Of a stretch of 64,000 nt of DNA, positions 25,705 to 43,505 are shown piece after piece. The translations under genes and the position numbers were made by a program. The notes under the pieces were generated by a model. It saw only the letters and a program-made list of their open reading frames with translations. It searched no databases and was not told the origin of the DNA. Positions within the stretch are counted from its first letter, which is position 1, and the number at the start of each line of letters is the position of its first letter. Origin of the DNA: Rubellimicrobium arenae (GTDB taxonomy: Bacteria; Pseudomonadota; Alphaproteobacteria; Rhodobacterales; Rhodobacteraceae); contig NZ_JAFMST010000007.1 in assembly GCF_017916275.1 (NCBI RefSeq), positions 1 to 64,000 on the forward strand, in the 5' to 3' direction.

Positions 25705-27642
25705 TCAGGCTCCTGCCGCGCGGCCCTTCATCGCGACGATGCCGCGGGGCCGGAACTGGATGAAGGCGATGATGAAGAGGATCATGTAGGTCTGGGCCGC
25801 GAGGGTGTTCGACGGGTTGAACCATTCGATCCCCTTCTGGAGGATCCCGATCAGCGAGGCTCCGGCCAGCGTCCCCCAGACGTTGCCCACGCCGCCGACG
25901 ACGACGGTCATGAAGCTCTGGACGATGTAGTCCGAGCCCATCTCGGACGTGACCTTGGCGTAGAGCCCGATGGCCACCCCGGCGATCCCCGCGATCCCCG
26001 ACCCCAGCCCGAAGGTCAGCATCGCGATGCGGTCGGGGTCGATTCCCATGGAGGCCGCCATGCCGGGGTTCTGCGTGACGGCGCGCACCTCGAGCCCCAG
26101 CCGCGTCCGGTTGAGGATGAAGAGCAGCAGCCCCAGGAACAGGAGCGCCAGCACGAAGATGGCGATCCGGATGTAGGCGATGCCCAGCACGTCGTTCACG
26201 ATCCAGGCTCCGTCGAGCCAGGACGGCGAGGTCAGCGGCCGCGCCTGCGTCCCGAAGATGTTCTTGGCGATCTGCTGGAGCGCGATCGAGATCCCGAAGG
26301 TGGCGAGCAGCGTTTCCAGCGGGCGATGCGCAAGGTGGCGGATCACGAGCCGTTCCATCGCGACCCCCGCCGCGAAGGTCACGGCAAAGGCCAGCGGCAG
26401 CGCGAGGATCAGCGACAGCGTGTAGTCGGGCACCAGCGTCTGCACGACATAGCCGGTGTAGGCGCCCATCATGATGAACTCGCCATGGGCCATGTTGATG
26501 ACGCCCATGACCCCGAAGGTAATGGCCAGCCCGATGGCCGCAAGGAAGTAGATCGAGGCCAGCGAGATCGCGTCCAAGGCGATGTCCGCGGCCTGGTAGA
26601 GGCTGACCCGGGTGACGGCCGACGCCAGCGCACGCTCGGCCGCGCCGGTGATCGCGGCGTCCTTCTCCGCATAATCCTGCCAGAAGGCATGGGACCCCAG
26701 CGCCGCGTCGACCTCCTCCTCGGAGATGCGGGGCGGCAGCCCGCGCGCAGGGGCGATGGCGTCATAGGCCGCGTGCCGCGCCTCGTCCGAACCCAGGGTG
26801 GCCACCGGCGCATCACCCACCTTTCCCCCGGCAAGGGCCGCGACGAGGGCGTCGCGGATCGCGTTCTCGGTCACCCGGGGCGGCGCGAGGCCGGCCTCCA
26901 CCAGCATGACATAGGCGGCCTCGCGCGGGAGCTCGTCGCTCCCCGGCGTCAGCTTCCAGGCGACGTTGGCCTCGGCGGGAATGGCGTCGGCGGCCCGGGG
27001 CTCGCTCGAAAGGATCTGGTTCAGGACGGCGCGGGCTTCGACCGTGATGTCGGAGCCCAGGGCCTCGATGGCGGCGATGCGGGCCTCCGGGTCCGCCTCG
27101 AAGCGGGCGGCCAGCAGGTTCTCCAGCCGCTCCTTGCGGGCCAGGACCCCCGGGTCGTCCTCGCCCTCCAGCGAGGCGCGCAGCGGCTCCAGCTGCTCGG
27201 GCGCGGGGTCCTTGGCGATGGCATCGAGAGCCGCCTGACGCCGCGCGATGTCGGGATCGGACAGCTGGAACTGGATCAGCGCCGACCCGATCACGCCCCG
27301 CACGCCCGCGTTGGGCCTGAGCTCGTCGACCTCGCGCGGGCCGCTGTGGCCGACCTCCTCGCCCGAGGAGACATCGAACAGGACATGCCCGCCGCCCTCC
27401 TTGGTCCCGTAGAAGAACAGGCCGTCGCTCTGGCGCTGGACGACCTCCTTGGCCTGCCAGCGTTCGAGGAAGGTGGGCACCTCGGGCAGGCCCGAGGCCA
27501 CGAGCCGGTCCAGCACTTCGCCCACCGTGCGGCGCGACGGGTCCGAGATCGCCTCGGGATCCGCCTGGAGCAGGTCCTGGAGGGTCTGCGCCGAGGCCAT
27601 GGAAGCCCAGAGCGCCGCGATGAGGGCAAGGACGATGCGCAT
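25705..27642 (-). CDS. urtB: Urea ABC transporter permease UrtB with long periplasmic N-terminal region
   Basis: The 645-residue protein has a signal peptide (MRIVLALIAALWASMASAQ), then roughly 320 soluble residues rich in short alpha-helical repeats (for example SDPDIARRQAALDAIAKD and ADPEARIAAIEALGSD), then a LivH-like permease with NMAHGEFIMMGAYTGYV near residue 385. The soluble N-terminal region is a known feature of UrtB, and here it is at the long end. The repeats look HEAT-like and could interact with UrtA in the periplasm (inference). It lies 39 nt after urtA, separated by a hairpin. Confidence 0.94.
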   Translation of the reverse strand: MRIVLALIAALWASMASAQTLQDLLQADPEAISDPSRRTVGEVLDRLVASGLPEVPTFLERWQAKEVVQRQSDGLFFYGTKEGGGHVLFDVSSGEEVGHSGPREVDELRPNAGVRGVIGSALIQFQLSDPDIARRQAALDAIAKDPAPEQLEPLRASLEGEDDPGVLARKERLENLLAARFEADPEARIAAIEALGSDITVEARAVLNQILSSEPRAADAIPAEANVAWKLTPGSDELPREAAYVMLVEAGLAPPRVTENAIRDALVAALAGGKVGDAPVATLGSDEARHAAYDAIAPARGLPPRISEEEVDAALGSHAFWQDYAEKDAAITGAAERALASAVTRVSLYQAADIALDAISLASIYFLAAIGLAITFGVMGVINMAHGEFIMMGAYTGYVVQTLVPDYTLSLILALPLAFAVTFAAGVAMERLVIRHLAHRPLETLLATFGISIALQQIAKNIFGTQARPLTSPSWLDGAWIVNDVLGIAYIRIAIFVLALLFLGLLLFILNRTRLGLEVRAVTQNPGMAASMGIDPDRIAMLTFGLGSGIAGIAGVAIGLYAKVTSEMGSDYIVQSFMTVVVGGVGNVWGTLAGASLIGILQKGIEWFNPSNTLAAQTYMILFIIAFIQFRPRGIVAMKGRAAGA

Positions 27643-27650
27643 CGTGATGT

Positions 27651-27674
27651 CCGGGGGACCCGGAGGCCCCCCGG
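27651..27674 (-). other. Intercistronic hairpin between urtA and urtB
   Basis: CCGGGGG (27651-27657) pairs with CCCCCGG (27668-27674) over a 10-nt loop in the 39-nt gap after urtA. The placement behind the binding-protein gene mirrors the ribitol operon hairpin and would favour surplus UrtA. There is no U-run. Confidence 0.65.
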
Positions 27675-27681
27675 CCCTTTC

Positions 27682-28968
27682 TCAGTAGTTGGAGGTGAGC
27701 TGCACGCAGGTCTGGGTCTGCGTGTTGTACATGCCGCAATGCAGCTTGGACCAATCGGACTCGAGCACGGCGGATTCGGGCAGGAAGTCCGTCCAGGCGT
27801 CGCCCGCCACCGGATCGGTCTGCGAGATGATGTCGAACTGGCCGTCGTCCCGGATCTCGCCGATCAGCACCGGCTTGGTCAGGTGGTGGTTCGGCAGCAT
27901 CTCGGCGGTGCCGCCCGTGAGGTTCGGGAACGTCTGGCCGACCATGGCGTCGATCACCGCGTCCACGTCGGTCGTGCCGGCCTGCGTGACGGCGTTCACC
28001 CACATGTTGAAGCCGATGTAGTGGGCCTCCATCGGGTCGTTGGTCACGCGGGCGTCGTCGCCGATGTAGTCGTGCCAGGCCTGGATGAAGGCCTCGTTCT
28101 CGGGCGTGTCGGCGGACATGAAGTAGTTCCAGGCCGCGAGGTGCCCCACGAGGTTCGAGGTGTCGAGGCCCGACAGCTCCTCCTCGCCGACCGAGAAGGC
28201 CACGACCGGCATGTCGTCCGCCGAGATGCCCTGCGCCGCCAGCTCCTTGTAGAAGCCGATGTTCGCGTCGCCGTTGATGGTCGAGATCACGCCCACCGGC
28301 TCGCCGTCGGCGGCCAGCGCCTTCACGTCCGACACGATCGTCGCCCAGTCCGACTGGCCGAAGGGCGTGTAGTTGACGAAGATGTCGCTCTCCGGGATGC
28401 CCTTCGACTCGAGGTAGGCGGTCAGGATGTTGTTCGTGGTGCGCGGGTAGACGTAGTCGGTGCCCAGCAGGGCGAACTTCTTGATGCCCAGCTCGTCTAG
28501 GTAATAGTCCACCGCCGGGATCGCCTGCTGGTTCGGGGCGGCGCCGGTGTAGAAGACGTTGCGCGACGATTCCTCGCCCTCGTACTGGACGGGGTAGAAC
28601 ATCAGGCCGTCGAGCTCTTCCAGCACCGGCAGCACCGACTTGCGGCTGACCGAGGTCCAGGCCCCGAAGATCACGTCCACATGGTCCACCGTGAGCAGCT
28701 CGCGCGCCTTCTCGGCGAAGAGCGGCCAGTCCGACGCGGGGTCGACGACCACCGGCTCGATCTGGCAACCCAGCAGACCACCCTTCTTGTTCTGCTGGTC
28801 GATCAGCATGAGCATGGTGTCCTTCAGCGTCGTCTCGGAGATCGCCATGGTCCCCGACAGCGAATGGAGGACGCCGACCTTGATGGGGCAGGCCTGCTGG
28901 GCGGTTGCGGCGCTGGCCCCCAGAGCGGCCGCGAGCGCCGCAACGGAAAGGCTGGTCTTGATGGTCAT
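27682..28968 (-). CDS. urtA: Urea ABC transporter substrate-binding protein UrtA
   Basis: Periplasmic urea-binding protein, 428 residues, first gene of urtABCDE. The signal peptide ends near GASAATAQQ. UrtA-specific segments are clear: IKVGVLHSLSGTMAISE, IFGAWTSVSRKSVLPV, FYPVQYEGEESSRNVFYTG and LGTDYVYPRTTN. The conserved order urtA-B-C-D-E, the tiny spacings and the neighbouring nitrate-assimilation operon all support a nitrogen-scavenging role, normally induced under nitrogen limitation. The upstream gap has a strong palindrome close to the start. Confidence 0.96.
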   Translation of the reverse strand: MTIKTSLSVAALAAALGASAATAQQACPIKVGVLHSLSGTMAISETTLKDTMLMLIDQQNKKGGLLGCQIEPVVVDPASDWPLFAEKARELLTVDHVDVIFGAWTSVSRKSVLPVLEELDGLMFYPVQYEGEESSRNVFYTGAAPNQQAIPAVDYYLDELGIKKFALLGTDYVYPRTTNNILTAYLESKGIPESDIFVNYTPFGQSDWATIVSDVKALAADGEPVGVISTINGDANIGFYKELAAQGISADDMPVVAFSVGEEELSGLDTSNLVGHLAAWNYFMSADTPENEAFIQAWHDYIGDDARVTNDPMEAHYIGFNMWVNAVTQAGTTDVDAVIDAMVGQTFPNLTGGTAEMLPNHHLTKPVLIGEIRDDGQFDIISQTDPVAGDAWTDFLPESAVLESDWSKLHCGMYNTQTQTCVQLTSNY

Positions 28969-29485: not shown

Positions 29486-30082
29486 ATGGCCGATCCCCTG
29501 CTCTCGATCCTCGTCATCGACGAGAACCGCGCCCGCGCCGCGATCATCGAGGCGGGCCTGCGCGAGGCCGGGCACGACCAGGTGACCCTTGTCCATTCGA
29601 TGGCCGGCATCGCCCGCCGCATCCAGGAGGCCGCGCCGGACGTCATCGTCATCGACCTCGAGAACCCGAATCGCGATATGCTCGAGGACATGTTCCAGCT
29701 TTCGCGCGCCGTCCGACGCCCCGTGGCGATGTTCGTGGACCGCTCCGACAGCGCTTCGATCGCCGCGGCGGTCGAGGCCGGGGTCTCGGCCTATGTCGTG
29801 GACGGGCTCCGGCAGGAACGGGTCAAGCCCATCCTCGACATGGCGGTGAGCCGCTTCAACGCCTTTGCCCGCCTGACGCGCGAACTCCAGGAAGCCCGGG
29901 AGGAGCTGGAGGGCCGAAAGGTCGTGGACACGGCCAAGCGCCTCCTCATGAAACGCAGAAACATCTCCGAGGACGAGGCCTATGCGCTGCTCCGCAGGAC
30001 GGCCATGAACAAGAACCGCAAGATCGCCGAGATCGCCCAAAGCCTCGTGACCGCCGCGGACCTGCTGGGAGACGAGCCGTGA
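29486..30082 (+). CDS. nasT: ANTAR-domain antitermination regulator NasT
   Basis: The 198-residue RNA-binding regulator of nitrate assimilation has a receiver-like domain (about residues 7-120, LLSILVIDENRARAAI, VIVIDLENPNRDM). A coiled linker (ELQEAREELEGRKVVDTAK) leads to a C-terminal ANTAR domain with AKRLLMKRRNISEDEAYALL and KNRKIAEIAQ. In the known system NasS holds NasT inactive until nitrate or nitrite binds NasS; free NasT then stabilises an antiterminator in the leader of the assimilation operon. The nasS gene overlaps its stop, and a matching leader RNA lies at 31492-31585. Confidence 0.95.
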   Translation: MADPLLSILVIDENRARAAIIEAGLREAGHDQVTLVHSMAGIARRIQEAAPDVIVIDLENPNRDMLEDMFQLSRAVRRPVAMFVDRSDSASIAAAVEAGVSAYVVDGLRQERVKPILDMAVSRFNAFARLTRELQEAREELEGRKVVDTAKRLLMKRRNISEDEAYALLRRTAMNKNRKIAEIAQSLVTAADLLGDEP

Positions 30083-31317
30083 CGCACCGGATCATCGCGG
30101 GATTCATGCCGCTCCTCGACAGCGCGCTCCTTGTCGCCGCCCGGACGAAGGGCTTCGCCGAGGCGGAAGGGATCGACCTCACGCTGCTTCGCGAAACCTC
30201 CTGGGCCAACATCCGGGACCGGATCGCGGTCGGCCATGTTCAGGTCGCGCACATGCTCGGCCCCATGCCCATCGCCTGCAACCTGGGCCTTACGCCGCTG
30301 GCGGCGCCGACCGTGGTCCCCATGGCGCTGGGACTCGGTGGCAACGCGGTCACGGTCTCGAACGCCCTTTGGTCCCTGATGGAGCGCGAGGGCGCCCGGC
30401 CCGACCTTTCGCCCGCCGGGACGGGTCACGCCCTGCGCGAGGTGGTCGCCTGCCGCGCGCGGGACGGCTGGGCGCGGCTGCGCTTCGCCGTCGTGCATCC
30501 GCATTCCAGCCACAACTACGAGCTGCGCTACTGGCTCTCTGCCTGCGGGATCGTGCCGGGGCAGGACATCGACATCCTCATCCTCCCGCCGTCGCTCATG
30601 CCCGACGCCCTGGCCTCCGGCGCCCTGGACGGCTTCTGCGCGGGCGAGCCCTGGAACACCGTGGCGGTCGCGCAGGGCTCGGGCCGGATCGCCACCGTCA
30701 AGGCCGCGATCTGGCGGCAAAGCCCGGAAAAGGTTCTGGGCGTCGATGCCGCCTGGGCCGGGACGCACCCCGAGGCGCTCGACGCCCTGCTCCGCGCCCT
30801 GCACCGCGCGGCGGTCTGGTGCGGAACCCCCGCGAACCGGGAGGAGCTTGCCGCCCTGCTCTCGGACCCGGCCCATGTGGGCTGCCCCGCGGATCGGCTC
30901 CTGCCGGCGCTGACCGGCCAGCTCCGCATCGCGCCGGACGAGGTGGCGGCCGTGCCGGACTTCTTCGTGCCCCAGGCTTCGGCCGCGACCTTCCCATGGA
31001 AAAGCCATGCGCTGTGGTTCTACAGCCAGATGGTCCGATGGGGCCAGGTCGCCCATGCACCCCGCGCCGCCCAGATCGCGCGGGACACCTATCGCCCCGA
31101 CCTTTACCGCCGCGCGCTGGGCCCGCTCGGGGTGGCGCTCCCCTCCGCGAACGCCAAGGTCGAGGGCGCCCTGACCCGTCCCACCCCGGTCGGATCGTCC
31201 GGGGCGAGCCTCGTGCTCGGCCCGGACGGCTTCTTCGACGGAGCCCGGTTCGACCCCGATTCGCTCGACGCCTATGTCGCCGCGCAGCAAGGTTCGCCGG
31301 ACGCCCAAAGGGCGTGA
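30079..31317 (+). CDS. nasS: Nitrate/nitrite sensor NasS (NrtA-like, cytoplasmic)
   Basis: The GTG start overlaps the nasT stop by 4 nt and gives 412 residues. The protein belongs to the NrtA/CmpA binding-protein family (GFMPLLDSALLVAARTKGF, HMLGPMPIACNLGL, VVHPHSSHNYELRYWL, FCAGEPWNTVAV) but begins directly with the mature domain and has no signal peptide. That is what separates the cytoplasmic sensor NasS from periplasmic NrtA. It would bind nitrate or nitrite and release NasT. The start at GTG is supported by coupling to nasT and by family alignment. Confidence 0.93.
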   Translation: MTHRIIAGFMPLLDSALLVAARTKGFAEAEGIDLTLLRETSWANIRDRIAVGHVQVAHMLGPMPIACNLGLTPLAAPTVVPMALGLGGNAVTVSNALWSLMEREGARPDLSPAGTGHALREVVACRARDGWARLRFAVVHPHSSHNYELRYWLSACGIVPGQDIDILILPPSLMPDALASGALDGFCAGEPWNTVAVAQGSGRIATVKAAIWRQSPEKVLGVDAAWAGTHPEALDALLRALHRAAVWCGTPANREELAALLSDPAHVGCPADRLLPALTGQLRIAPDEVAAVPDFFVPQASAATFPWKSHALWFYSQMVRWGQVAHAPRAAQIARDTYRPDLYRRALGPLGVALPSANAKVEGALTRPTPVGSSGASLVLGPDGFFDGARFDPDSLDAYVAAQQGSPDAQRA

Positions 31318-31491
31318 GATCGGCGCCCATATGCTGTGCAGTGCGCAAACCGCCTTCGCCGGCATCGCCCCGAGGCTGGCGATGCCTAACTGGCAGGCAG
31401 ATCATGTATCTGATTTTCTTCCGATATCCACGATTTTCCGGGTTGGCGGACCTGCGGTTCTGGGCTAGCCCTTAGGACATCCTCCCACTTC

Positions 31492-31526
31492 GGCGCCCAA
31501 CGGAGGGCGCCTGGCAAAGCCGCCGG
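31492..31526 (+). promoter_or_regulatory. ANTAR-type antiterminator: two tandem hexaloop hairpins, predicted NasT target
   Basis: Hairpin 1 pairs GGCGCCC (31492-31498) with GGGCGCC (31505-31511), leaving loop AACGGA. Hairpin 2 follows at once: (C)TGGC (31511-31515) pairs with GCCG(G) (31522-31526), leaving loop AAAGCC. Both loops have six bases with A at position 1 and G at position 4, the established recognition pattern of ANTAR proteins. The 3' half of hairpin 2 is also the 5' arm of the terminator at 31516-31585, so folding hairpin 2 prevents termination. The nasT gene encoding the expected binder is 1.4 kb upstream. Confidence 0.85.
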
Positions 31527-31585
31527 TCAGGAGTTCGGGCCACTCTCCCTCGGAGTGGGCCAGAACCATCTGACGGCGGCTTTTT
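31516..31585 (+). terminator. Regulated intrinsic terminator in the nitrate-operon leader
   Basis: The 5' arm at 31516-31530 (AAAGCCGCCGGTCAG) pairs with the 3' arm at 31570-31583 (CTGACGGCGGCTTT) over 14 pairs with one bulged G, followed by a U-run (31581-31585). The enclosed loop has its own hairpin (CCACTC/GAGTGG, with TTC/GAA at its base). The 5' arm overlaps the second ANTAR hairpin, making the two folds mutually exclusive. It ends 48 nt before the transporter start. Confidence 0.88.
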
Positions 31586-31633: not shown

Positions 31634-32896
31634 ATGTCCGACGCCCTGTCTCCGCACGACCCCGGCTCGCCCTCGCGGGCGCTGGCCCTGTCCACCGTCG
31701 CCTTCACCGTCTGCTTTGCCGTCTGGACGATCTTCTCGATCATCGGCGTGAAGATCAAAGAGGAGCTGGGCCTGAGCGAGACCGCCTTCGGCCTCCTGAT
31801 CGGGATGCCGGTGCTGTCGGGATCGCTGGTGCGGCTGGTGCTGGGGATCTGGACGGACCGCTTCGGCGGGCGGCTGGTCTATACGGCGACGATGCTGCTG
31901 GCCTCCGCCTCCACGGTGCTGCTGTCCTTTGCGACCACCTACAACCAGATGCTGCTGGCCGCGCTGGGCGTGGGCCTCGCGGGCGGGTCCTTCGCGGTGG
32001 GCGTGGCCTATGTGTCGCGGTTCTACCCGGCCGGCCGGCAGGGGACGGCACTCGGCATCTTCGGGGTGGGCAACGTCGGCGCGGCGGTGACCAAGTTCGT
32101 CGCGCCCTTCGTCCTGGTGGCCTATGGCTGGGAGACGACCGCGCTGGTCTGGGCCGCCGCCCTCGCCGTCATGGCTGTAGTCTTCTGGTGTTCGACCGAG
32201 GACGACCCGGTGATCGTCGCCCGCCGCAAGGGCGCCGCCGCCCCGGCCCGCCCCTTCCTGGCGGAGTTCGAGCCGCTCAAGGACATCCGCGTCTGGCGCT
32301 TCGCCCTCTACTACTTCTTCTCGTTCGGGGCCTTCGTGGCGCTGGCGCTCTGGCTGCCGCGCTACCTGATCGGGGTCTACGGCTTCGACATCAAGACCGC
32401 GGGCATGATCGGCGCGGCCTACTCGATCCCGGCCTCGGTGGTGCGGGCCTGGGGCGGGCACCTGTCGGACCGGATCGGCGCGCGCCGGGTGCTGGTCTGG
32501 ACCTTCGCGGTCTCGGCGCTCTGCACGCTGATCCTGTCGGCCCCTTCCTCGGGCAACGCCGCCGACGGCACGGCGCGGGCCGCCCTCTCCGTCCCCGCCT
32601 TCATCGCGGTGATCTTCGTGCTGGGCTTCTTCATGGCCCTGGGCAAGGCCGCCGTCTACAAGCACATCCCGGCCTATTACCCGACCAACGTCGGCGCGGT
32701 CGGCGGCCTGGTCGGCATGATCGGCGGCCTGGGCGGCTTCGTCCTGCCCTTCGCCTTCGGGATGCTCAAGGACGCGACCGGCCTGTGGTCGAGCTGCTTC
32801 ATGCTGCTCTTCGTGCTGGTCGCGATCTGCTTCGCCTGGATGACCTCGGTGGTGCGCCGCCTGAACGCCGCCCCCGCCCCCCTTCCCGCCGAATGA
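31634..32896 (+). CDS. MFS nitrate/nitrite transporter (NarK/NasA type)
   Basis: This nitrate importer is the first structural gene of the assimilation operon. The 420-residue protein has 12 predicted helices and the nitrate-signature glycine-rich helices of NNP transporters: AGGSFAVGVAYVSRFYP near residue 115 and GIFGVGNVGAAVTKFVAP near 140, then GGLVGMIGGLGGFVLPFAFG in the second half. The ATG has AGGAGA 6 nt upstream. It lies behind the NasT-controlled terminator and 59 nt before nirB. Confidence 0.93.
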   Translation: MSDALSPHDPGSPSRALALSTVAFTVCFAVWTIFSIIGVKIKEELGLSETAFGLLIGMPVLSGSLVRLVLGIWTDRFGGRLVYTATMLLASASTVLLSFATTYNQMLLAALGVGLAGGSFAVGVAYVSRFYPAGRQGTALGIFGVGNVGAAVTKFVAPFVLVAYGWETTALVWAAALAVMAVVFWCSTEDDPVIVARRKGAAAPARPFLAEFEPLKDIRVWRFALYYFFSFGAFVALALWLPRYLIGVYGFDIKTAGMIGAAYSIPASVVRAWGGHLSDRIGARRVLVWTFAVSALCTLILSAPSSGNAADGTARAALSVPAFIAVIFVLGFFMALGKAAVYKHIPAYYPTNVGAVGGLVGMIGGLGGFVLPFAFGMLKDATGLWSSCFMLLFVLVAICFAWMTSVVRRLNAAPAPLPAE

Positions 32897-32955: not shown

Positions 32956-35415
32956 ATGACCGAGCGCCTCGTCATCATCGGCAACGGCATGGCCCCGGGC
33001 CGGATGCTGGAGCACCTTTTCGCGCAGGCCCCCGGCGCCTACCACGTGACCATCTTCAACGCCGAGCCCCGGGTGAACTACGACCGGATCATGCTGTCCC
33101 CGGTACTGTCAGGCGAAAAGACCTACGGCGACATCGTCATCCACGACGACGCTTGGTACGCCGCCCACGGTATCACGCTCCATCGCGGGCACCGCGTCAC
33201 GCAGATCGACCGGACGGCCCGGACCGTGACATCCGACCAGGGCATCACCGCCCCCTACGACCGCCTCGTCATCGCCACCGGCTCCAACCCGTTCATGATC
33301 CCCGTTCCGGGCCGCGACCTGCCCGGCGTCCTCGCCTACCGCGACCTCGACGACGTCCAGCAGATGCTGGAGGTCGCAGACAAGGGGGGCCGTGCCGTCG
33401 TCATCGGCGGCGGCCTCCTGGGCCTCGAGGCCGCCGCCGGCCTCAAGCAACGCGGAATGGAGGTCACCGTCCTCCATGTCATGCCGACGCTGATGGAGCG
33501 CCAGCTCGACCCCGCCGCCGGATACCTCCTCGAAAAGGAACTGAAGCGCCGGGGCATCCACGTCATCACGAAGGCCATCACCAAGGCCATCCTCGGCGAG
33601 GACCGGGTCAAGGCCGTGGAACTCGCCGATGGAACCCTGATCCCCGCGAGCCTCGTCGTCATGGCCGTGGGCATCCGACCGAACGTCCAGATCGCCAGGG
33701 AGGCGGGGCTGGAGGTCGCGCGCGGCATCGTCACCACCGACGCCATGCAGACCTCCGACCCGGCGATCTACTCTCTCGGTGAATGCGCCGAGGTCGGCGG
33801 GCAGGTCTACGGCCTCGTGGCCCCCCTCTACGAGCAGGCCCGTGTCCTGGCCGCGCATCTCGCGGACGACACCGCGCCCAGGTTCGTGCACCAGGACACG
33901 CCCACGAAGCTCAAGGTCACCGGCATCGATCTCTACTCTCTGGGCGATTTCGCCGAGGGCGACGACCGCGAGGAGATCGTGCTCCGCGACGCGAGCGCGG
34001 GCGTCTACAAGCGCATCGTCCTCAGGGACAACCGGATCATCGGCACCGTCCTCTACGGCGAGACCGCCGACGGCGCCTGGTTCAACGACCTCAAGAAGAA
34101 GGCCACCGACGTCTCCGATATGCGGGACACGCTGATCTTCGGGCAGATGTTCCAGTCGGGCCAAGGGGGCGCCTCCGCGGACCCTTTGGCGGCCGTTGCG
34201 GCCCTCTCGGATGATGCCGAGATCTGCGGCTGCAACGGCGTCTGCAAGGGCAGGATCACCGGCGCGATCCGCGCCAAGGGCCTGACCGACCTCGACGGCG
34301 TGCGCGCCCACACCAAGGCCTCCGCGTCCTGCGGCACCTGCACCGGCCTCGTGGAAAAGCTCCTCAGGCTGGAGCTGGGCGACACCTACAATCCCACCGC
34401 CGTGCCCCCGATGTGCCCCTGCACGACCCACGGCCACGACGAGGTCCGCCGCCTGATCCGCGCCAAGGCCCTCAAGACCATCCCCGCCGTGATGCAGGAG
34501 CTGGAGTGGAAGACCTCCTGCGGCTGCGCCAAGTGCCGGCCCGCGCTCAACTATTACCTCGTCTGCGACTGGCCGGACGAATACGCCGACGACTACCAGT
34601 CCCGCTTCGTCAACGAGCGTGTCCACGCCAACATCCAGAAGGACGGCACCTATTCGGTGGTCCCCCGGATGTGGGGCGGCATGACCTCGGCCAAGGAACT
34701 CCGCGCCATCGCCGACGTGGTGGACAAGTTCGATATCCCCGCCGTCAAGGTCACGGGCGGCCAGCGGATCGACATGCTGGGCATCCGCAAGGAGGATCTT
34801 CCGGCCGTCTGGGCCGACCTTGGCAAGGCCGGCTTCGTCTCGGGCCAGGCCTACGCCAAGGGCCTGCGGACGGTGAAGACCTGCGTGGGCAACACATGGT
34901 GCCGCTTCGGCACGCAGGACTCCACCGGCCTCGGCATCCGGCTCGAGAAGTTCATGTGGGGCTCCTGGACGCCCGCCAAGCTCAAGCTCGCCGTCTCGGG
35001 CTGCCCCCGCAACTGCGCCGAGGCGACCTGCAAGGACATCGGCGTCATCTGCGTGGACTCGGGCTACGAGATCCACTTCGCGGGCGCCGCCGGCCTCGAC
35101 ATTAAGGGGACTGAGGTCCTGGGTCACGCCGCGACCGAGGACGAGGCGCTGGAGATCGTCGTCGCCCTCACGCAGATGTACCGCGAGCAGGCCCGCTACC
35201 TCGAACGCATCTACAAATGGGCCAAACGGATCGGCGTCCCCGAGATCAAGCGGCAGATCATGGAGGACGCCGATCGCCGTCGCGCCTTCTTCGACCGCTT
35301 CGTCGTTTCCCAAAGGTTCGCCCAGGTGGACCCCTGGTCCGAGCGCGTCTCGGGCAAGGACAAGCACGAGTTCAAGCCGATGGCGGTCGTCGGCTATCAG
35401 GAGGCTGCGGAATGA
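32956..35415 (+). CDS. nirB: Assimilatory nitrite reductase, large subunit NirB
   Basis: It reduces nitrite to ammonium with NAD(P)H in the cytoplasm. The 819-residue protein starts with an FAD-binding module (MTERLVIIGNGMAPGRML; NAD-binding VIGGGLLGLEAAAGL near residue 150). Next comes a BFD-like [2Fe-2S] region (ICGCNGVCKG about 421-430, then CGTC) and the siroheme/[4Fe-4S] domain with TCVGNTWCRFG (about 641-651) and SGCPRNCAEATC (about 681-692), which supply the four cluster cysteines. GAGGA precedes the ATG, and nirD overlaps the stop by 4 nt. The siroheme synthase needed for its cofactor is encoded downstream in the same operon. Confidence 0.97.
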   Translation: MTERLVIIGNGMAPGRMLEHLFAQAPGAYHVTIFNAEPRVNYDRIMLSPVLSGEKTYGDIVIHDDAWYAAHGITLHRGHRVTQIDRTARTVTSDQGITAPYDRLVIATGSNPFMIPVPGRDLPGVLAYRDLDDVQQMLEVADKGGRAVVIGGGLLGLEAAAGLKQRGMEVTVLHVMPTLMERQLDPAAGYLLEKELKRRGIHVITKAITKAILGEDRVKAVELADGTLIPASLVVMAVGIRPNVQIAREAGLEVARGIVTTDAMQTSDPAIYSLGECAEVGGQVYGLVAPLYEQARVLAAHLADDTAPRFVHQDTPTKLKVTGIDLYSLGDFAEGDDREEIVLRDASAGVYKRIVLRDNRIIGTVLYGETADGAWFNDLKKKATDVSDMRDTLIFGQMFQSGQGGASADPLAAVAALSDDAEICGCNGVCKGRITGAIRAKGLTDLDGVRAHTKASASCGTCTGLVEKLLRLELGDTYNPTAVPPMCPCTTHGHDEVRRLIRAKALKTIPAVMQELEWKTSCGCAKCRPALNYYLVCDWPDEYADDYQSRFVNERVHANIQKDGTYSVVPRMWGGMTSAKELRAIADVVDKFDIPAVKVTGGQRIDMLGIRKEDLPAVWADLGKAGFVSGQAYAKGLRTVKTCVGNTWCRFGTQDSTGLGIRLEKFMWGSWTPAKLKLAVSGCPRNCAEATCKDIGVICVDSGYEIHFAGAAGLDIKGTEVLGHAATEDEALEIVVALTQMYREQARYLERIYKWAKRIGVPEIKRQIMEDADRRRAFFDRFVVSQRFAQVDPWSERVSGKDKHEFKPMAVVGYQEAAE

Positions 35416-35747
35416 GCATCTGGATCGACATCGGCAACCTCGACGACCTCCCCTTGCGCGGCTCGCGCTGCGTGCAGACTCCCACCGGCCGGATCGGCGT
35501 CTTCCGCACCGCCGACGACCGCGTCTTCGCGATCCGCAACGAATGCCCCCACAAGGGCGGCCCGCTGACCGAAGGCATCGTCCACGGCCATTCCGTCACC
35601 TGCCCGCTCCACAACTGGGTCATCTCGCTCGAAACCGGCCAGGCCCAGGGCGCCGACGAGGGCGCGGTCGAGACGATCCCCGTCCGCGTCGAGGGCAGCC
35701 GCATCCTCCTCCTGCGCGCGGCCATCGGGGCGAGGGTCGCGGCGTGA
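35412..35747 (+). CDS. nirD: Nitrite reductase small subunit NirD
   Basis: The 111-residue Rieske-like protein has the C-x-H and C-x2-H cluster ligands in ECPHKGGPL and CPLHNWVI, so the [2Fe-2S] ligand set is complete; some NirD proteins lack it. It partners NirB in NAD(P)H-dependent nitrite reduction. Overlaps of 4 nt at both ends (ATGA with nirB, GTGA with the nitrate reductase gene) show tight coupling. Confidence 0.95.
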   Translation: MSIWIDIGNLDDLPLRGSRCVQTPTGRIGVFRTADDRVFAIRNECPHKGGPLTEGIVHGHSVTCPLHNWVISLETGQAQGADEGAVETIPVRVEGSRILLLRAAIGARVAA

Positions 35748-38398
35748 GCGGAGAGGTCCGGACCACCTGCCCCTATTGCGGCGTGGGCTGCGGCGTCCTC
35801 GCGCGCGTCGAGGGCGACCGCGTCCATGTCCGGGGCGACCCGGACCACCCCTCCAACTTCGGCCGCCTTTGCTCCAAGGGCGCGGCGCTCGGCGAGACCA
35901 TGGCCCTCGACGGCCGCGTCCTGCACCCCGAGGTGAAAGGCCAGCGCACTACCTGGGACGCCGCCCTCGACCTCGTGGCGCACCGATTCACCGAGACCGT
36001 CGCCCGGCACGGCCCCGACTCCGTCGGCTTCTACGTCTCCGGCCAGCTCCTGACCGAGGACTACTACGTCGCCAACAAGCTCCTGAAGGGCTTCATCGGC
36101 ACCGCCAACATCGACACCAACTCGCGGCTCTGCATGGCGTCGTCCGTGGCGGGCCACAAGCGGGCCTTCGGCGAGGACATCGTGCCGGGCACCTACGAGG
36201 ACCTGGAACAGGCCGACCTCACCGTCCTCGTGGGCTCCAACCTCGCCTGGTGCCACCCGGTCCTGCACCAGCGCCTCCTCGCGGCGAGGGAGCGGCGCGG
36301 CACGAAGATCGTCGTCATCGACCCCCGCCGCACCGCCACCGCAGAGGACGCCGACCTCCACCTCGCCATCCGCCCGGGCAGCGACGTCCTCCTCTTCAAT
36401 GGCCTCCTCGCCCACGTGGCGGCCAGCGCCGCGACCGACCCCGCCTGGATCGCGGCGCACACCAATGGCTTCGAGGCCACCCTTGCACTCGCCCAGGCCG
36501 ACGCGCCCGACCGCGCCCGCGTCGCCAAGGGCTGCGACATCCACCCCGCCGACCTCGCCCACTTCTACGACTGGTTCACCACGACGCCCCGCACCGTCAC
36601 CGTCTACAGCCAGGGCGTGAACCAGTCCGCCCACGGCACCGACAAGGTGGGCGCGATCCTCAACGTCCACCTCGCGACGGGCCGCATCGGGCGCGAGGGC
36701 ATGGGCCCGTTCAGCGTCACCGGTCAGCCCAACGCCATGGGGGGCCGCGAGGTCGGAGGCCTGGCCAACCAGCTCGCCGCCCATATGGGGTTCAGCGCCC
36801 CCGAGATCGACCGCGTGTCGCGCTTCTGGACCGCCCCGAACCTCGCCCGCAGCCCCGGCCTCAAGGCCGTGGACCTGTTCGAGGCCGCCCGCACCGGCCC
36901 CCTCAAGGCGCTCTGGATCATGGGCACCAACCCCGCCGTCTCCATGCCCGACGCCAGCCGCGTGCGCGAGGCGCTCCGGACGGTCCCGTTCCTCGTGGTC
37001 TCCGACGTGAGCCGCACCGACACCACCCGCCAAGCCGACGTCCTCCTCCCCGCCGCGGCCTGGGGCGAGAAGGACGGGACCGTCACCAACAGCGAACGCC
37101 GCATCTCCCGCCAACGCGCCTTCCTTCCCCTTCCCGGAGAGGCCCGCCCCGACTGGCGGATCGTCACCGACGTCGCCCGCCGCATGGGATTCGCGGACGC
37201 CTTCCCCTACCAGTCCCGGGCCGAGATCTTCAGGGAACACGCCGCCCTGACCGCCTTCGAGAACGACGGCGAACGCCTCCTCGACCTCGGCGCCCTCGCG
37301 GACCTTCCCGACGACGCCTACGAGGCCCTCACCCCCGTCCAGTGGCCCGCCAGGCGCGGCACCCCGCCCGGCGGCCGCCTCCTCGCCACCCGCTGCCCCA
37401 CCCCCGATGGCCGCGCGAACCTTGTTCCCGTCCGGCAGGAGGGCCCCGCCAAGCCCACCGACCGCGACCACCCCATCGCGCTCACCACCGGACGGCTCCG
37501 CGACCAGTGGCACACGATGACGCGCACCGGGCTCGTGCCGCGCCTGATGACCCACGCGCCCGAGCCCGTGCTCGACCTCGCCCGCCACGCGGCGCAGGGC
37601 CTCGGCCTCCGCGACGGCGACCTCGTCCGCATCGAGAGTCCCCTGGGCCAGGCCCTCGCCCGGCTCCGCATCTCCGACGCCCTTCGCCCCGGCGAGGCGT
37701 TCCTGCCGATGCACTGGAGCGGCCTTTTCGCCGCCCGCGCCAGCACCGGCCCCCTCTCCAACCCGGCGACCGACGCGCTTTCCGGCCAGCCCGAGCTGAA
37801 GCATGTCCCCGTCCGGGTCACCAAGGCCGAGACGCGCTGGGTCGGGCTTCTGCTGACGCGCCGCGACCTGCGCCCGACGGGCCTCCTCCACTGGAGCCGC
37901 GCCCGCGTCCCGGGCGGCTGGGCCTACGAGTTGACCGGGGCCGAGCCGCCAGAAGAAGGCGTCCTCCTCGCCCGCGCCCTGCTGCCCGCGACCGCCCGCG
38001 AGGGCCTGATCGACTATGCGGACAAGCGGGCCGGGACGTGGCGGGCCGCCGCCCTCGCCCCGGACGGCACGCTGGCCGAGGCGCTGCTGGTCGCGCCGCC
38101 GGACCGGCTTCCCGACCGGGCGTGGCTGCTGTCGCTGCTGGAGAGCGCCCGGCCCCTGTCTGCGCTCGACCGCCGCGCGCTGCTCTCGGGACGCGCGCCC
38201 TCCCCGCAGCCCGACAAGGGACGCATCGTCTGCGCCTGCCTGGGCGTTGGGGTGAACGAGATCGCCGACGCCGTCCGCGCTGGCGCGACCAGCGTGGACG
38301 CGATAGGCAACGCCACCAGGGCAGGCACCAACTGCGGCTCCTGCCGCTCCGAGATCCGGGAGTTGATCCATGCGCAACGCCTCCTTGCCGCCGAGTGA
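35744..38398 (+). CDS. nasA: Assimilatory nitrate reductase catalytic subunit with C-terminal BFD-like domain
   Basis: This Mo-bisMGD enzyme reduces nitrate to nitrite. A GTG start overlapping the nirD stop gives 884 residues. N-terminal [4Fe-4S] ligands are C9, C12, C16 and C43 (TCPYCGVGCGV, GRLCSKG). C130 in SRLCMASS is the expected molybdenum ligand. Molybdopterin-dinucleotide segments run to about residue 690. The last 60 residues form a BFD-like [2Fe-2S] domain with C830, C832, C864 and C867 (VCACLGVG, NCGSCRSE), a usual electron entry module of NasA/NarB enzymes. No separate NADH-linked subunit (NasC) is adjacent, so the electron donor may be ferredoxin or an unlinked protein. Confidence 0.95.
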   Translation: MSGEVRTTCPYCGVGCGVLARVEGDRVHVRGDPDHPSNFGRLCSKGAALGETMALDGRVLHPEVKGQRTTWDAALDLVAHRFTETVARHGPDSVGFYVSGQLLTEDYYVANKLLKGFIGTANIDTNSRLCMASSVAGHKRAFGEDIVPGTYEDLEQADLTVLVGSNLAWCHPVLHQRLLAARERRGTKIVVIDPRRTATAEDADLHLAIRPGSDVLLFNGLLAHVAASAATDPAWIAAHTNGFEATLALAQADAPDRARVAKGCDIHPADLAHFYDWFTTTPRTVTVYSQGVNQSAHGTDKVGAILNVHLATGRIGREGMGPFSVTGQPNAMGGREVGGLANQLAAHMGFSAPEIDRVSRFWTAPNLARSPGLKAVDLFEAARTGPLKALWIMGTNPAVSMPDASRVREALRTVPFLVVSDVSRTDTTRQADVLLPAAAWGEKDGTVTNSERRISRQRAFLPLPGEARPDWRIVTDVARRMGFADAFPYQSRAEIFREHAALTAFENDGERLLDLGALADLPDDAYEALTPVQWPARRGTPPGGRLLATRCPTPDGRANLVPVRQEGPAKPTDRDHPIALTTGRLRDQWHTMTRTGLVPRLMTHAPEPVLDLARHAAQGLGLRDGDLVRIESPLGQALARLRISDALRPGEAFLPMHWSGLFAARASTGPLSNPATDALSGQPELKHVPVRVTKAETRWVGLLLTRRDLRPTGLLHWSRARVPGGWAYELTGAEPPEEGVLLARALLPATAREGLIDYADKRAGTWRAAALAPDGTLAEALLVAPPDRLPDRAWLLSLLESARPLSALDRRALLSGRAPSPQPDKGRIVCACLGVGVNEIADAVRAGATSVDAIGNATRAGTNCGSCRSEIRELIHAQRLLAAE

Positions 38399-39812
38399 CG
38401 CCGCCCCCGCGCGGGTCGAGCCGCTGTCGGTCCTCCCGGTCTTCTTCGACCTGCACGGCAAGCGCGCCCTCGTCGCCGGAGGCACCGATCCCGCCGCCTG
38501 GAAGGCCGAGCTTCTGGCCGCCGCCGGGGCGGAGGTCACCGTCGCCGCCCCGGAGCTGGAGGACGAGATGGCCCGCCTCGTGCAGGCCGGGACCGTCCGC
38601 CACCTGCCCTGCGACTGGACGCCCGACCTCCTCCAGGGCTGCGCCCTCGCCATCGCCGACGAGGAGGACCCGGAGCGCGCCCAGGCTTTCGTCGACGCGG
38701 CCCGCGCCGCCGCCGTGCCCGTCAACGTCATCGACAACCCGGCCTTCTGCCAGTTCCAGTTCGGGTCCGTCGTGAACCGTTCGCCGGTCGTGGTCGGCAT
38801 CTCCACCACCGGGGCGGCGCCGATCCTGGGCCAGGCCGTCCGCCGCCGGATCGAGACGCTGCTCCCCCGCTCGCTCAGCCAGTGGGGCGCGCTGGCGCAG
38901 ACGGTCCGCGACCGCGTGGTGGCCCGGCTGTCCCCCGGCCCGGCCCGCCGCGCCTTCTGGGAAGGCTTCGTGGACCGCGCCTTCGGTCCCGCGCCCGGCG
39001 ACGATGCCGAAGCCGACCTCCTCCGGCTGCTCGACGCACCCACCCGCAGCGGCGGCCACGTCACCTTTGTCGGCGCCGGTCCCGGCGACCCGGAGCACCT
39101 GACCCTCAAGGCCGTCCGGGCGCTGCAATCCGCCGACGTGATCCTGTTCGACGACCTCGTCTCCGACGGCGTGCTCGAACTCGCCCGCCGCGAGGCCAAG
39201 CGCATCCTTGTCGGCAAGCGCGCCGACCGGCCCTCCTGCAAGCAGCACGAGATCAACGACCTGATGGTGACGCTGGCCAAGGCCGGGCGGCGCGTCGTGC
39301 GGCTCAAGTCCGGCGACCCGATGATCTTCGGCCGCGCGGGCGAGGAGATCGCGGCGCTCAAGGCCGCGGGCCTCCCATACGACGTGGTGCCCGGCGTGTC
39401 GGCAGGGCTTGCGCTCGCGGCGACGCTCGGCACCTCGCTCACCCACCGCGACCATGCCAAGTCGGTGCGCTTCGTCACCGGCCACAGCAAGCACGGCGGC
39501 CTGCCCGAGGATCTGGACTGGGCCGCCATCGCCGACCCTTCGGCCACCACGGTCATCTACATGGGCGCGCGCATGGCGGGCTGTTTGTCCGAACGCCTCA
39601 TCGCCCTGGGGCTGTCGCCGGACACCCCGGCGGCGATCGGCCAGGCCCTGGGCCGCCCGGGTGAGCGGACCGCCCACGCCACCCTGGCGACCCTGCCCGA
39701 CGCCGTCGGACAAAGCGACCTGTCCCAGCCGATCGTCATCGGCATCGGCCATGTGTTCGGCGCAACGGCCAAGGAGGCCTCGGCCCAGGACGCCGCCCGC
39801 GCCATCGCCTGA
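38370..39812 (+). CDS. cysG: Trifunctional siroheme synthase CysG
   Basis: It makes siroheme, the NirB cofactor, from uroporphyrinogen III. The 480-residue protein combines an N-terminal precorrin-2 dehydrogenase/ferrochelatase (VFFDLHGKRALVAGGTDPAA, NVIDNPAFCQFQFGSVVNR) with a C-terminal uroporphyrinogen methyltransferase from about residue 228 (VTFVGAGPGDPEHLTLKAV, RLKSGDPMIFGRAGEE, VVPGVSAGLA, VIYMGAR). The start overlaps the nitrate reductase gene by 29 nt. As last gene of the operon it would be co-induced with nirBD through the NasT leader. Confidence 0.95.
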   Translation: MRNASLPPSDAAPARVEPLSVLPVFFDLHGKRALVAGGTDPAAWKAELLAAAGAEVTVAAPELEDEMARLVQAGTVRHLPCDWTPDLLQGCALAIADEEDPERAQAFVDAARAAAVPVNVIDNPAFCQFQFGSVVNRSPVVVGISTTGAAPILGQAVRRRIETLLPRSLSQWGALAQTVRDRVVARLSPGPARRAFWEGFVDRAFGPAPGDDAEADLLRLLDAPTRSGGHVTFVGAGPGDPEHLTLKAVRALQSADVILFDDLVSDGVLELARREAKRILVGKRADRPSCKQHEINDLMVTLAKAGRRVVRLKSGDPMIFGRAGEEIAALKAAGLPYDVVPGVSAGLALAATLGTSLTHRDHAKSVRFVTGHSKHGGLPEDLDWAAIADPSATTVIYMGARMAGCLSERLIALGLSPDTPAAIGQALGRPGERTAHATLATLPDAVGQSDLSQPIVIGIGHVFGATAKEASAQDAARAIA

Positions 39813-41787: not shown

Positions 41788-42083
41788 GCGACCGGAGGCC
41801 GCGTCCGGCGATCCCGACGTCGGAGATCCCGGCCGATCACGACGCGGTAGAAATTCCGAGAGATCGACCCGGAATGGCCGCCCTGCGGGATGACAGGCCG
41901 TGATCGATGGATTAACGGGCGCCCGACCAGAAGGGCGGGTCCGACGGGTTTGGTCGGACAGGCAGGAACTCGCGCAAGGCCCCGACTTGCCTTCCAATGG
42001 CCTCAAAACCGCCCTGCACGAGTGATCAGCTTGCCCCCGATCCGCTTGCCCGGATCAATCCGATCAGCAGTGAAGGACAGACC

Positions 42084-43505
42084 ATGGCTCCGAAGCCGGC
42101 TTCGACGCGCATCCTCGCGGACTACATCCGCTCCGGAATCTGGGACGAACAGGGCAAGCCTGACCACCAGTTCGACGACTCGACCATCACGGTGGACCTT
42201 TCCGGCATCGGCAGGGAATCCCAGGCGCTGGCCCGGCTGGCCCTCCGCGCCTGGGAGGCCGTGGCGAACGTCACCTTCAACGTCACCTTCGAGGAAACCG
42301 ACTCCGACGCGGACATCACGTTCGACGACGCGCGCCCGAGCAGGGCCACCGCCACGGTGCACATGACCACCGGCGGCGACATCACCTCGGTGCACCTGAA
42401 CGTCGGCGCCGAATGGATGAGCCGGTACAGCACCGATCCGGGCTCCTACGGCTTCCAGACCCTCGTGCACGAGATCGGCCACGCGCTCGGCCTCGGGCAC
42501 TCCGGCCCCTACGAGCCCGGGGCCGTCTTCGAGGATGCCAAGTACAGCACCGACAGCTGGCAGCAGACGATCATGTCCTACCTCGACCAGGACGAGAATC
42601 CGACCGTCAAGGCCGAGAAGGCTTATGTCGTCACCCCCATGATGGCCGACATCATGGCCATCCAGGCGATGTATGGCCGCCCGACCGAGGAAAACGACGC
42701 CACGGCCGGGAACACCCGCTATGGCGTGCGCTCCGACCTGGGCAACTACCTCGACAAGTTCTTCCGGGGGACGGCCGGCGATCTCGGCCAGAACGCCATG
42801 ACCATCTACGACCGGAACGGGACCGACACGATCGACTTCCGGGACGACACGCGCGCCCAGAACGTGAACCTGGGCGACGGCAAGTTCTCCAGCGTCTACG
42901 GGGTCCAGGGCAATCTCGGCATCGCCGTGGGCACCAAGATCGAGAATTTCGTGGCCGGCAGCGGCTCGGACCGGGTCGCGGGCAACGGGTCGAACAACCG
43001 GATCGCGCTGAATGGCGGCGACGACCGGGCGAATGGCCTGGGCGGGCGCGACGTGATCGCCGGCGGCACCGGAAGCGACCAGATCTGGGGCGGCGAGGGG
43101 CACGACCGGGTGTCCGGCGACAACGGCAAGGATCGGCTCTGGGGCGGGGACGGCGCCGACAGCCTTTACGGCGGGGACGGGGGCGACCGGCTTTGGGGCA
43201 ACTCGGGCAACGACACGCTGAACGGCGGCGCGGGCGACGACCTCCTGTTCGGGGGCAAGGGCCGCGACGTCTTCGTGTTCGGACAGGGCCACGACGTGGT
43301 CCGCGACTTCGAGGGGGCCGACACGCTGCGGCTCGACGACGCCCTTTGGAACGGCCGTGACCTGTCCGCGCGCGAGGTGATCAGGGAGTTCGCCCATGTG
43401 ACCGCGGGCGGCGACGTCCTGTTCGACTTCGACGGCGGCGAGACGCTCCGCGTCAAGGACGTGACGCGCGCCCTCGACCTCGCCGACGACCTGGTTTTCT
43501 TCTAG
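42084..43505 (+). CDS. Serralysin-like zinc metalloprotease with RTX repeats (peptidase M10)
   Basis: The ATG at 42084 has GAAGGA at 42072-42077 and gives 473 residues. The metzincin motif HEIGHALGLGH supplies ligands H129, H133 and H139 and catalytic E130; the Met-turn is IMSYLD. After the M10 C-terminal sheet, nonapeptide RTX calcium-binding repeats follow (GGDDRANGL, GGTGSDQIW, GGDGADSLY, GGAGDDLLF, about residues 305-405). The C-terminal tail ends in DLVFF, an RTX/type I secretion-like hydrophobic end. There is no N-terminal signal peptide, as expected for type I export, and no HlyB/HlyD genes are adjacent. Substrate is unknown; nutrient proteolysis outside the cell is likely. Confidence 0.93.
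   Translation: MAPKPASTRILADYIRSGIWDEQGKPDHQFDDSTITVDLSGIGRESQALARLALRAWEAVANVTFNVTFEETDSDADITFDDARPSRATATVHMTTGGDITSVHLNVGAEWMSRYSTDPGSYGFQTLVHEIGHALGLGHSGPYEPGAVFEDAKYSTDSWQQTIMSYLDQDENPTVKAEKAYVVTPMMADIMAIQAMYGRPTEENDATAGNTRYGVRSDLGNYLDKFFRGTAGDLGQNAMTIYDRNGTDTIDFRDDTRAQNVNLGDGKFSSVYGVQGNLGIAVGTKIENFVAGSGSDRVAGNGSNNRIALNGGDDRANGLGGRDVIAGGTGSDQIWGGEGHDRVSGDNGKDRLWGGDGADSLYGGDGGDRLWGNSGNDTLNGGAGDDLLFGGKGRDVFVFGQGHDVVRDFEGADTLRLDDALWNGRDLSAREVIREFAHVTAGGDVLFDFDGGETLRVKDVTRALDLADDLVFF

Follow-up and report, generated by a model that had tools for sequence, protein, structure and literature searches.

A NasT-type (ANTAR) attenuator very probably precedes the nitrate operon of Rubellimicrobium arenae and resembles the Hyphomicrobiales form

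Attenuation by ANTAR proteins, including NasT, is already known from Paracoccus, Klebsiella and Enterococcus (PMC3795266, PMC5424462, PMC3369931). In Paracoccus denitrificans, nasT and nasS lie directly upstream of the nasABGHC operon, and the ANTAR protein NasT is bound at a non-coding leader of about 200 bp that contains hairpins. The NasS-NasT complex dissociates with nitrate or nitrite, NasT binds the nasA leader RNA in EMSA, the nasABGHC transcript is absent from a nasT mutant, and a hairpin-I mutant does not grow on nitrate (PMC3795266, PMC5424462). In Enterococcus faecalis, the eut targets of the ANTAR antiterminator EutV carry two hairpins with six-base loops, each with A at position 1 and G at position 4 (A1/G4), and the second hairpin overlaps a terminator; both the dual-hexaloop rule and the overlap come from this work, in which the signal is ethanolamine, acting via phosphorylation (PMC3369931, PMC8934654). 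In the Klebsiella nasF leader, nitrate-responsive antitermination of the nas operon is exerted by NasR, which fuses sensor and ANTAR domain. Among the matches listed in a search of openly licensed papers, none concerned this leader in Rubellimicrobium.

The window analysed here is a stretch of 64,000 nt from R. arenae (contig NZ_JAFMST010000007.1, positions 1 to 64,000). Its nitrate locus comprises the following genes.

29486 to 30082, + strand: nasT, with a receiver domain and an ANTAR RNA-binding domain (Pfam ANTAR 7e-20, Response_reg 1.5e-8)
30079 to 31317, + strand: nasS, nitrate-sensor-like, NMT1_2 family (Pfam NMT1_2 1.4e-66)
31634 to 32896, + strand: NarK-like nitrate/nitrite MFS transporter (TIGR00886 8.9e-66, under the curated cut-off)
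32956 to 35415, + strand: nirB, nitrite reductase large subunit (TIGR02374 1.1e-262)
35412 to 35747, + strand: nirD, nitrite reductase small subunit (TIGR02378 6e-28)
35744 to 38398, + strand: assimilatory-type molybdopterin nitrate reductase (nasA) with a C-terminal BFD domain (Pfam Molybdopterin 6.5e-73, Fer2_BFD 9.7e-16)
38370 to 39812, + strand: cysG, siroheme synthase (NF007922 3.8e-161)

The Pfam and NCBIfam profile matches bear out the arrangement proposed by an earlier sequence-only reading, with nasT and nasS directly upstream of the leader and NarK-nirBD-nasA-cysG downstream. nasT and nasS share 4 bases at their junction, and an ANTAR regulator with a receiver-like N-terminus adjoins a nitrate-sensor-like protein. 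As in P. denitrificans, the pair stands in front of the operon, whose composition differs from nasABGHC (PMC5424462); sensor and regulator are two proteins here, unlike Klebsiella NasR. The nitrate reductase gene matches the NCBIfam NasC, NasA and Fdh-alpha models, the last with the best E-value, all under their cut-offs, so its substrate is read from the context. The intergenic region from nasS to the transporter, the first gene 3' of the leader, is 316 nt long and contains, in order, a palindrome-like stretch, TTGGC and GCTA boxes, two hairpins and a terminator. The first hairpin begins 174 nt after nasS. On the other side of nasT, the divergent genes urtB and urtA of a urea ABC transporter (window 25705-28968, - strand; UrtA 1.4e-163, UrtB 1.7e-112) adjoin it, so that nitrate and urea uptake systems are neighbors. 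Beyond the nitrate operon, a serralysin-like metalloprotease with RTX calcium-binding repeats is encoded at 41997-43505 of the window (+ strand).

The leader consists of three elements, of which the last two overlap.

31492 to 31511, + strand: hairpin 1 (P1), 7 G-C pairs, loop AACGGA at 31499-31504 with A1 and G4
31512 to 31525, + strand: hairpin 2 (P2), 4 pairs including one U-G, loop AAAGCC at 31516-31521 with A1 and G4
31516 to 31585, + strand: intrinsic terminator, AAAGCCGCCG paired with CGGCGGCTTT, an apical hairpin and a U-run (T5) at 31581-31585

Both consecutive hexaloop hairpins and the U-run lie where the sequence-only reading had placed them. That reading also described a 14-bp terminator stem. 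The terminator is indeed strong, and the length is only approximate, the fold having 10 + 5 pairs and a single bulged G; among these pairs are three A-U pairs that use the U-run. The two stems have at least 3 pairs each, their six-base loops both carry A1 and G4, and P2 overlaps the terminator in a mutually exclusive manner, as in the dual-hexaloop attenuators described for EutV. Folded alone, 31485-31530 gives exactly P1 and P2 at -21.3 kcal/mol, a mildly unusual value (z -1.90; 7/200 shuffles fold as well). The whole leader folds as P1 and the terminator at -62.5 kcal/mol (z -4.37), the terminator stretch alone having a z of -7.16. Forcing P2 in the full leader gives -51.0 kcal/mol, a cost of 11.5 kcal/mol. 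In folds of growing prefixes, P2 is formed at 31526-31530, still present at 31575 and gone at 31580, by which point the terminator 3' arm is complete. The mutual exclusion of P2 and terminator claimed earlier is thus supported by folding, and by the terminator covariation given below.

Among dinucleotide shuffles of the 316-nt region, 39/5000 had a pair of A1/G4 hexaloops whose stems both reached 4 pairs or more, and 3/5000 had one whose stems reached 7 and 4 pairs or more, no terminator being required. The two strands of the window together contain five A1/G4 hexaloop pairs with both stems of at least 4 pairs, and the leader pair alone is then followed by a run of four T. Support from Rfam, to which the sequence-only reading had looked, did not come: with the Rfam 15 covariance models, no family reached its gathering threshold anywhere in the window. 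The terminator went unflagged in a simple terminator scan, whose targets are short, unbroken stems with a loop of 3-8.

We compared 81 close loci, namely the window and the best 80 NasT matches; NasT is 90% identical to that of R. aerolatum and 88% to that of R. rubrum. The same leader follows nasTS in 78/81 loci, which establishes its conservation in relatives. These loci were found with anchors that name stem letters only and are blind to loop letters, and all loop-letter counts rest on them; an earlier finder that demanded A1/G4 missed the same three loci. L040 and L045 showed no such leader within 2.6 kb of the nasT start, and in L091 the locus is cut by the contig end. P1 carries A1 and G4 in 78/78 loci, while P2 carries G4 in 78/78 and A1 in 76/78. 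The sole exceptions are two Aminobacter loci (L051 and L063), whose P2 loop is GAAGCT, with G at position 1. The linker between P1 and P2 is 0-1 nt here and 3 nt in 63/78 loci. The P1 of R. aerolatum contains a C-A mismatch. R. rubrum has an extra A1/G4 hexaloop hairpin upstream of P1 (loop ACAGAT, 4 pairs); inspection by eye did not reveal it in the four remaining Rubellimicrobium leaders.

Across 41 distinct dual hairpins from the close set, 98% of cells pair, against 37.8-63.9% with partners slid. Covariation in the hexaloop stems is modest: 2/10 pairs change on both sides, both of them in P1, a count reached in 55/500 shuffles, and the P1 and P2 covariation score is reached by 62/500. P2, with only 3-4 pairs, is invariant apart from one G-U, so that covariation in the close set says nothing for it. 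In the terminator, 8/13 pairs change on both sides in a selection of 27 of the 73 distinct full leaders. The covariation score of P1 and the terminator is 0.208, compared with 0.131 (sd 0.011) after shuffling, where 0/500 were as high, and at most 0.077 with partners slid.

The leaders of the family Rhodobacteraceae give the strongest support for the two hexaloop stems. NasT is present in 117/295 family genomes, its own genome included, the other 116 proteins being 44-58% identical to it. We examined 39 of these 116 loci (L153-L192 without L173), in which NasT is 48-57% identical to that of the window. A hexaloop hairpin followed by a T-run was assigned after nasS in 38/39; L183 is doubtful and L190 has none. 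The alignment comprises 36/39 leaders, all but L175, L183 and L190. In it, both loops carry A1 and G4 without exception, P2 having been located by these letters and P1 not. Both-side changes occur in 7/10 hexaloop pairs of these 36 diverged leaders (P1 5/6, P2 2/4), so the covariation that the sequence-only reading called for is modest in the close set and strong here. Six-base-loop hairpins with a stem of at least 5 pairs have A1 and G4 in 58/94 cases in the 39 leaders, against a shuffle mean of 1.8/31.4 (largest 6). With a stem-only anchor for P2, A1/G4 was found in 36/39 leaders, another loop in two, and no match in one locus.

The spacing of the hairpins differs between these systems. The Rhodobacteraceae hexaloops are 19-47 nt apart (31/38 measurable), as against 0-1 nt here; the P. 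denitrificans leader lies outside the compared set. EutV targets have linkers of 5-12 nt, and a 3-nt linker lowered induction (PMC3369931). The linker of the present leader is outside this range; linker length was not treated as defining, since the motif definition in that paper permits a variable linker. NasT leaders vary in spacing, from 0-1 nt here and mostly 3 nt in Hyphomicrobiales to about 30 nt in those of Rhodobacteraceae, and this spread challenges the EutV spacing rule. The Rhodobacteraceae gap often contains a third hairpin (CCC...GGG, the loop often with GA), which in some loci is itself an A1/G4 hexaloop (AAAGAT, AAAGTC). Its covariation is weak to moderate (65% of cells paired; 0.208 compared with 0.129 shuffled, one slid version reaching 0.240). 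These leaders are possibly a three-hairpin variant that breaks the EutV rule. We rejected the view that this middle hairpin forms a third canonical A1/G4 hexaloop in all loci, since it does so in a minority only.

We conclude that the leader is, very probably, a NasT-type (ANTAR) transcription attenuator, a switch of a kind already described. The direct basis of this reading is the sequence, anatomy, energetics, conservation and covariation of the leader and the adjacent sensor/regulator pair. By analogy with the described systems, we infer NasT binding, NasS release and nitrate dependence at this leader. NasS would hold NasT when nitrate and nitrite are absent. Without NasT, the nascent leader would refold from P1 and P2 to P1 and the terminator, and RNA polymerase would stop before the NarK-nirBD-nasA-cysG operon. 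When nitrate or nitrite is present, NasS would release NasT, and the freed NasT would bind the two A1/G4 hexaloops and keep P2 folded. As the P2 loop and 3' arm are also the 5' arm of the terminator, termination would then be blocked. The presumed signal, nitrate acting through NasS release, differs from that of EutV. The P. denitrificans transcript is reported to be made on glutamate as well (PMC5424462), so the nitrate response here could be partial. In B. diazoefficiens, most genes reported to be affected by loss of NasT are without such a hairpin, and narK rises without NasT (PMC6759348); the hairpin alone thus does not fix the sign of control. The locus is a clean contiguous example of the known mechanism, with sensor, regulator, RNA target and operon together, which makes the switch easy to test. 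What it adds is a switch apparently transferred and now behind a changed promoter, together with the varied hairpin spacing among NasT leaders.

Upstream of P1, three further elements were located.

31334 to 31348, no strand assigned: imperfect palindrome CTGTGCAGTGCGCAA, counterpart of the relatives' TTGTGCATTGCACAA with 3 mismatches
31443 to 31447, + strand: TTGGC box, a candidate -35 element situated roughly where the relatives have their sigma-54-like -24 box
31464 to 31467, + strand: GCTA box, candidate start of a -10 region, forming a TTGGC-N16-GCTA dyad

The close relatives outside Rubellimicrobium have a sigma-54-like element in this region (TGGCAC-N6-TGC-like, at most 2 mismatches, GG and GC fixed). 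It occurs within 160 nt upstream of P1 in 74/75 loci, against a background of 315/3655 other 160-nt pieces of these loci; it lies 43-56 nt upstream of P1 in 72/75 and further upstream in 2, and L080 is without it. The element is found in 1/39 Rhodobacteraceae leaders. Of the Rubellimicrobium leaders, 0/5 have it in the 160 nt next to P1, even when 3 mismatches are allowed. All five Rubellimicrobium leaders instead contain TTGGC-N16-GCTA, starting 47-51 nt before P1, where the relatives have the -24-like box. Their spacers match at 4-8 of 16 positions per pair. No shared 5+4 dyad appeared in 2000 mononucleotide shuffles of the five leaders, a count that is not a probability because the leaders are related. 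Neither the 39 Rhodobacteraceae leaders nor the 160 nt preceding P1 in the other 75 loci contain the dyad.

The sigma factor itself appears to be missing from the genus. The Sigma54_DBD domain was not found in 8/8 genus genomes, of which 6 are at least 90% complete with at most 5% contamination. It is over the cut-off in 61/198 family genomes, so its absence is common in the family. In the own genome of the window, nine stretches match the sigma-54-activator family; no GAFTGA-like motif was present in the four activator loci translated, including NtrC (457 aa), the weaker four having been left out. NtrC of Rhodobacter capsulatus and other Rhodobacterales is likewise reported to be without the GAFTGA loop, and that of R. 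capsulatus to work with sigma-70 (PMC10274813). Relatives (L035-L112) carry a near-perfect palindrome TTGTGCATTGCACAA about 184 nt upstream of P1 and some 130 nt ahead of the sigma-54-like box; 66/78 loci have it with no more than 2 mismatches. We consider the palindrome a candidate activator site of NtrC type. The published P. denitrificans NtrC motif was also tried and set aside: its single match in the window is distant and has one mismatch, with 3.3 expected by chance.

With moderate confidence, we read TTGGC-N16-GCTA as a putative sigma-70-type promoter built on the old -24 box, replacing the sigma-54-type promoter of the relatives. The attenuator might also work with no separate promoter, polymerases continuing from nasTS and TTGGC-N16-GCTA being a protein site or a chance remnant. 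This is possible, if rather doubtful: a sigma-70 consensus scan found no promoter upstream of the leader, the -10-like box is a poor match without the usual final T, and the gap from nasS to P1 is only 174 nt, but the dyad spacing is exact in 5/5 genomes despite a diverged spacer, 74/75 relatives have a promoter-like element nearby, and nasTS and nasABGHC are described as separate transcription units in P. denitrificans (PMC5424462).

The leader and the neighboring genes resemble those of another order. In Mesorhizobium, Aminobacter, Nitratireductor, Chelatococcus and their kin (L035-L112), the P1, P2 and terminator sequence is nearly the same and NasT is 74-81% identical; these Hyphomicrobiales-type loci differ in having the sigma-54-like element upstream of P1, which is absent here. 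A NarK-type transporter was seen in 34/78 close-set loci within the DNA examined, and several others open with a different, binding-protein-like gene, as read by eye. The best identities in Hyphomicrobiales versus Rhodobacteraceae are 81/57 percent for NasT, 75/43 for NasS and 75/63 for the transporter; the comparison covered these three genes and left out nirB and the genes behind. In a midpoint-rooted tree of 66 NasT proteins (the window, 26 of the best 80 loci and 39 Rhodobacteraceae), whose bootstrap had not settled, a group with 100/100 support unites the three Rubellimicrobium rows with 24 Hyphomicrobiales-type rows and contains none of the 39 Rhodobacteraceae rows. The inner placement of the Rubellimicrobium rows is less certain (86/90). 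Within the genus, 5/8 genomes have this NasT (86-100% identity), one (G204) has a family-type copy (52%) and two have none. Judged by its sequence, the module is of Hyphomicrobiales type and not of the usual Rhodobacteraceae form, which corrects the sequence-only reading.

The simplest reading, which these comparisons suggest, is a transfer of the nasTS-leader-transporter block from Hyphomicrobiales into Rubellimicrobium. We consider it improbable that such a block was ancestral in Rhodobacterales and lost elsewhere. The leaders of both groups do share the same logic, the Hyphomicrobiales tree rows are best hits of the query, which biases the sampling, and the inner placement of Rubellimicrobium is at 86/90; against this stand the 100/100 grouping apart from the 39 Rhodobacteraceae, the lack of any other NasT above 58% identity in the family (117/295 genomes with NasT), and the family-type copy (52%) that G204 carries instead.

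Transfer and promoter change can be joined in one reading, which we hold tentatively and at a little under an even chance. The acquired block would have kept its switch nearly unchanged; TTGGC would have been kept as a -35 element while the -12 element was lost, a new -10 element would have arisen 16-17 nt off, and housekeeping polymerase would start transcription, a sigma-70-type NtrC probably acting at the palindrome retained upstream. If true, an RNA attenuator moved from one order to another as a cassette, and the promoter preceding it was remodeled to suit another sigma factor. It would then be a natural test of the separability of two layers of nitrogen control, NtrC at initiation and NasT at elongation.

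It is highly improbable that the leader is only a conserved intrinsic terminator ending the nasTS transcript, with the operon promoter further down and no antitermination, since a strong terminator 3' of nasTS would fit, but the U-run ends just 48 bases before the transporter start codon, P1, needless for a terminator, keeps loop letters 1 and 4 in 78/78 loci, a second ANTAR-type loop is retained within the stem, and promoter-like elements lie upstream of P1.

We searched for further NasT targets with a model built from the leader. In the own genome, it returned 24 matches up to E 10, with one strong site, this leader (E 6.8e-7; next 0.1). None of the 9 weaker matches inspected among 23 (140-150 nt each) has a run of five T. 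With one strong site and no T-run at the inspected weaker ones, we claim no regulon beyond this operon. The short P2 pattern was rejected as a target finder, as it gave 74 matches against 45 in a reversed control. Across the class, 20/385 genomes have a match at E of at most 0.01, and three of them, the own genome included, have a strong one (E < 1e-6). The model, which is tuned to this leader type, missed G217, a family genome with NasT. The 6.5 kb examined around a second ANTAR protein of the own genome (G000:C6:46824-46976, L173) showed no dual hexaloop with a T-run behind it. This protein has an AmiR N-terminal domain, and its gene adjoins those of an AmiC-like binding protein and of ABC-transporter-like proteins, the latter read by eye.
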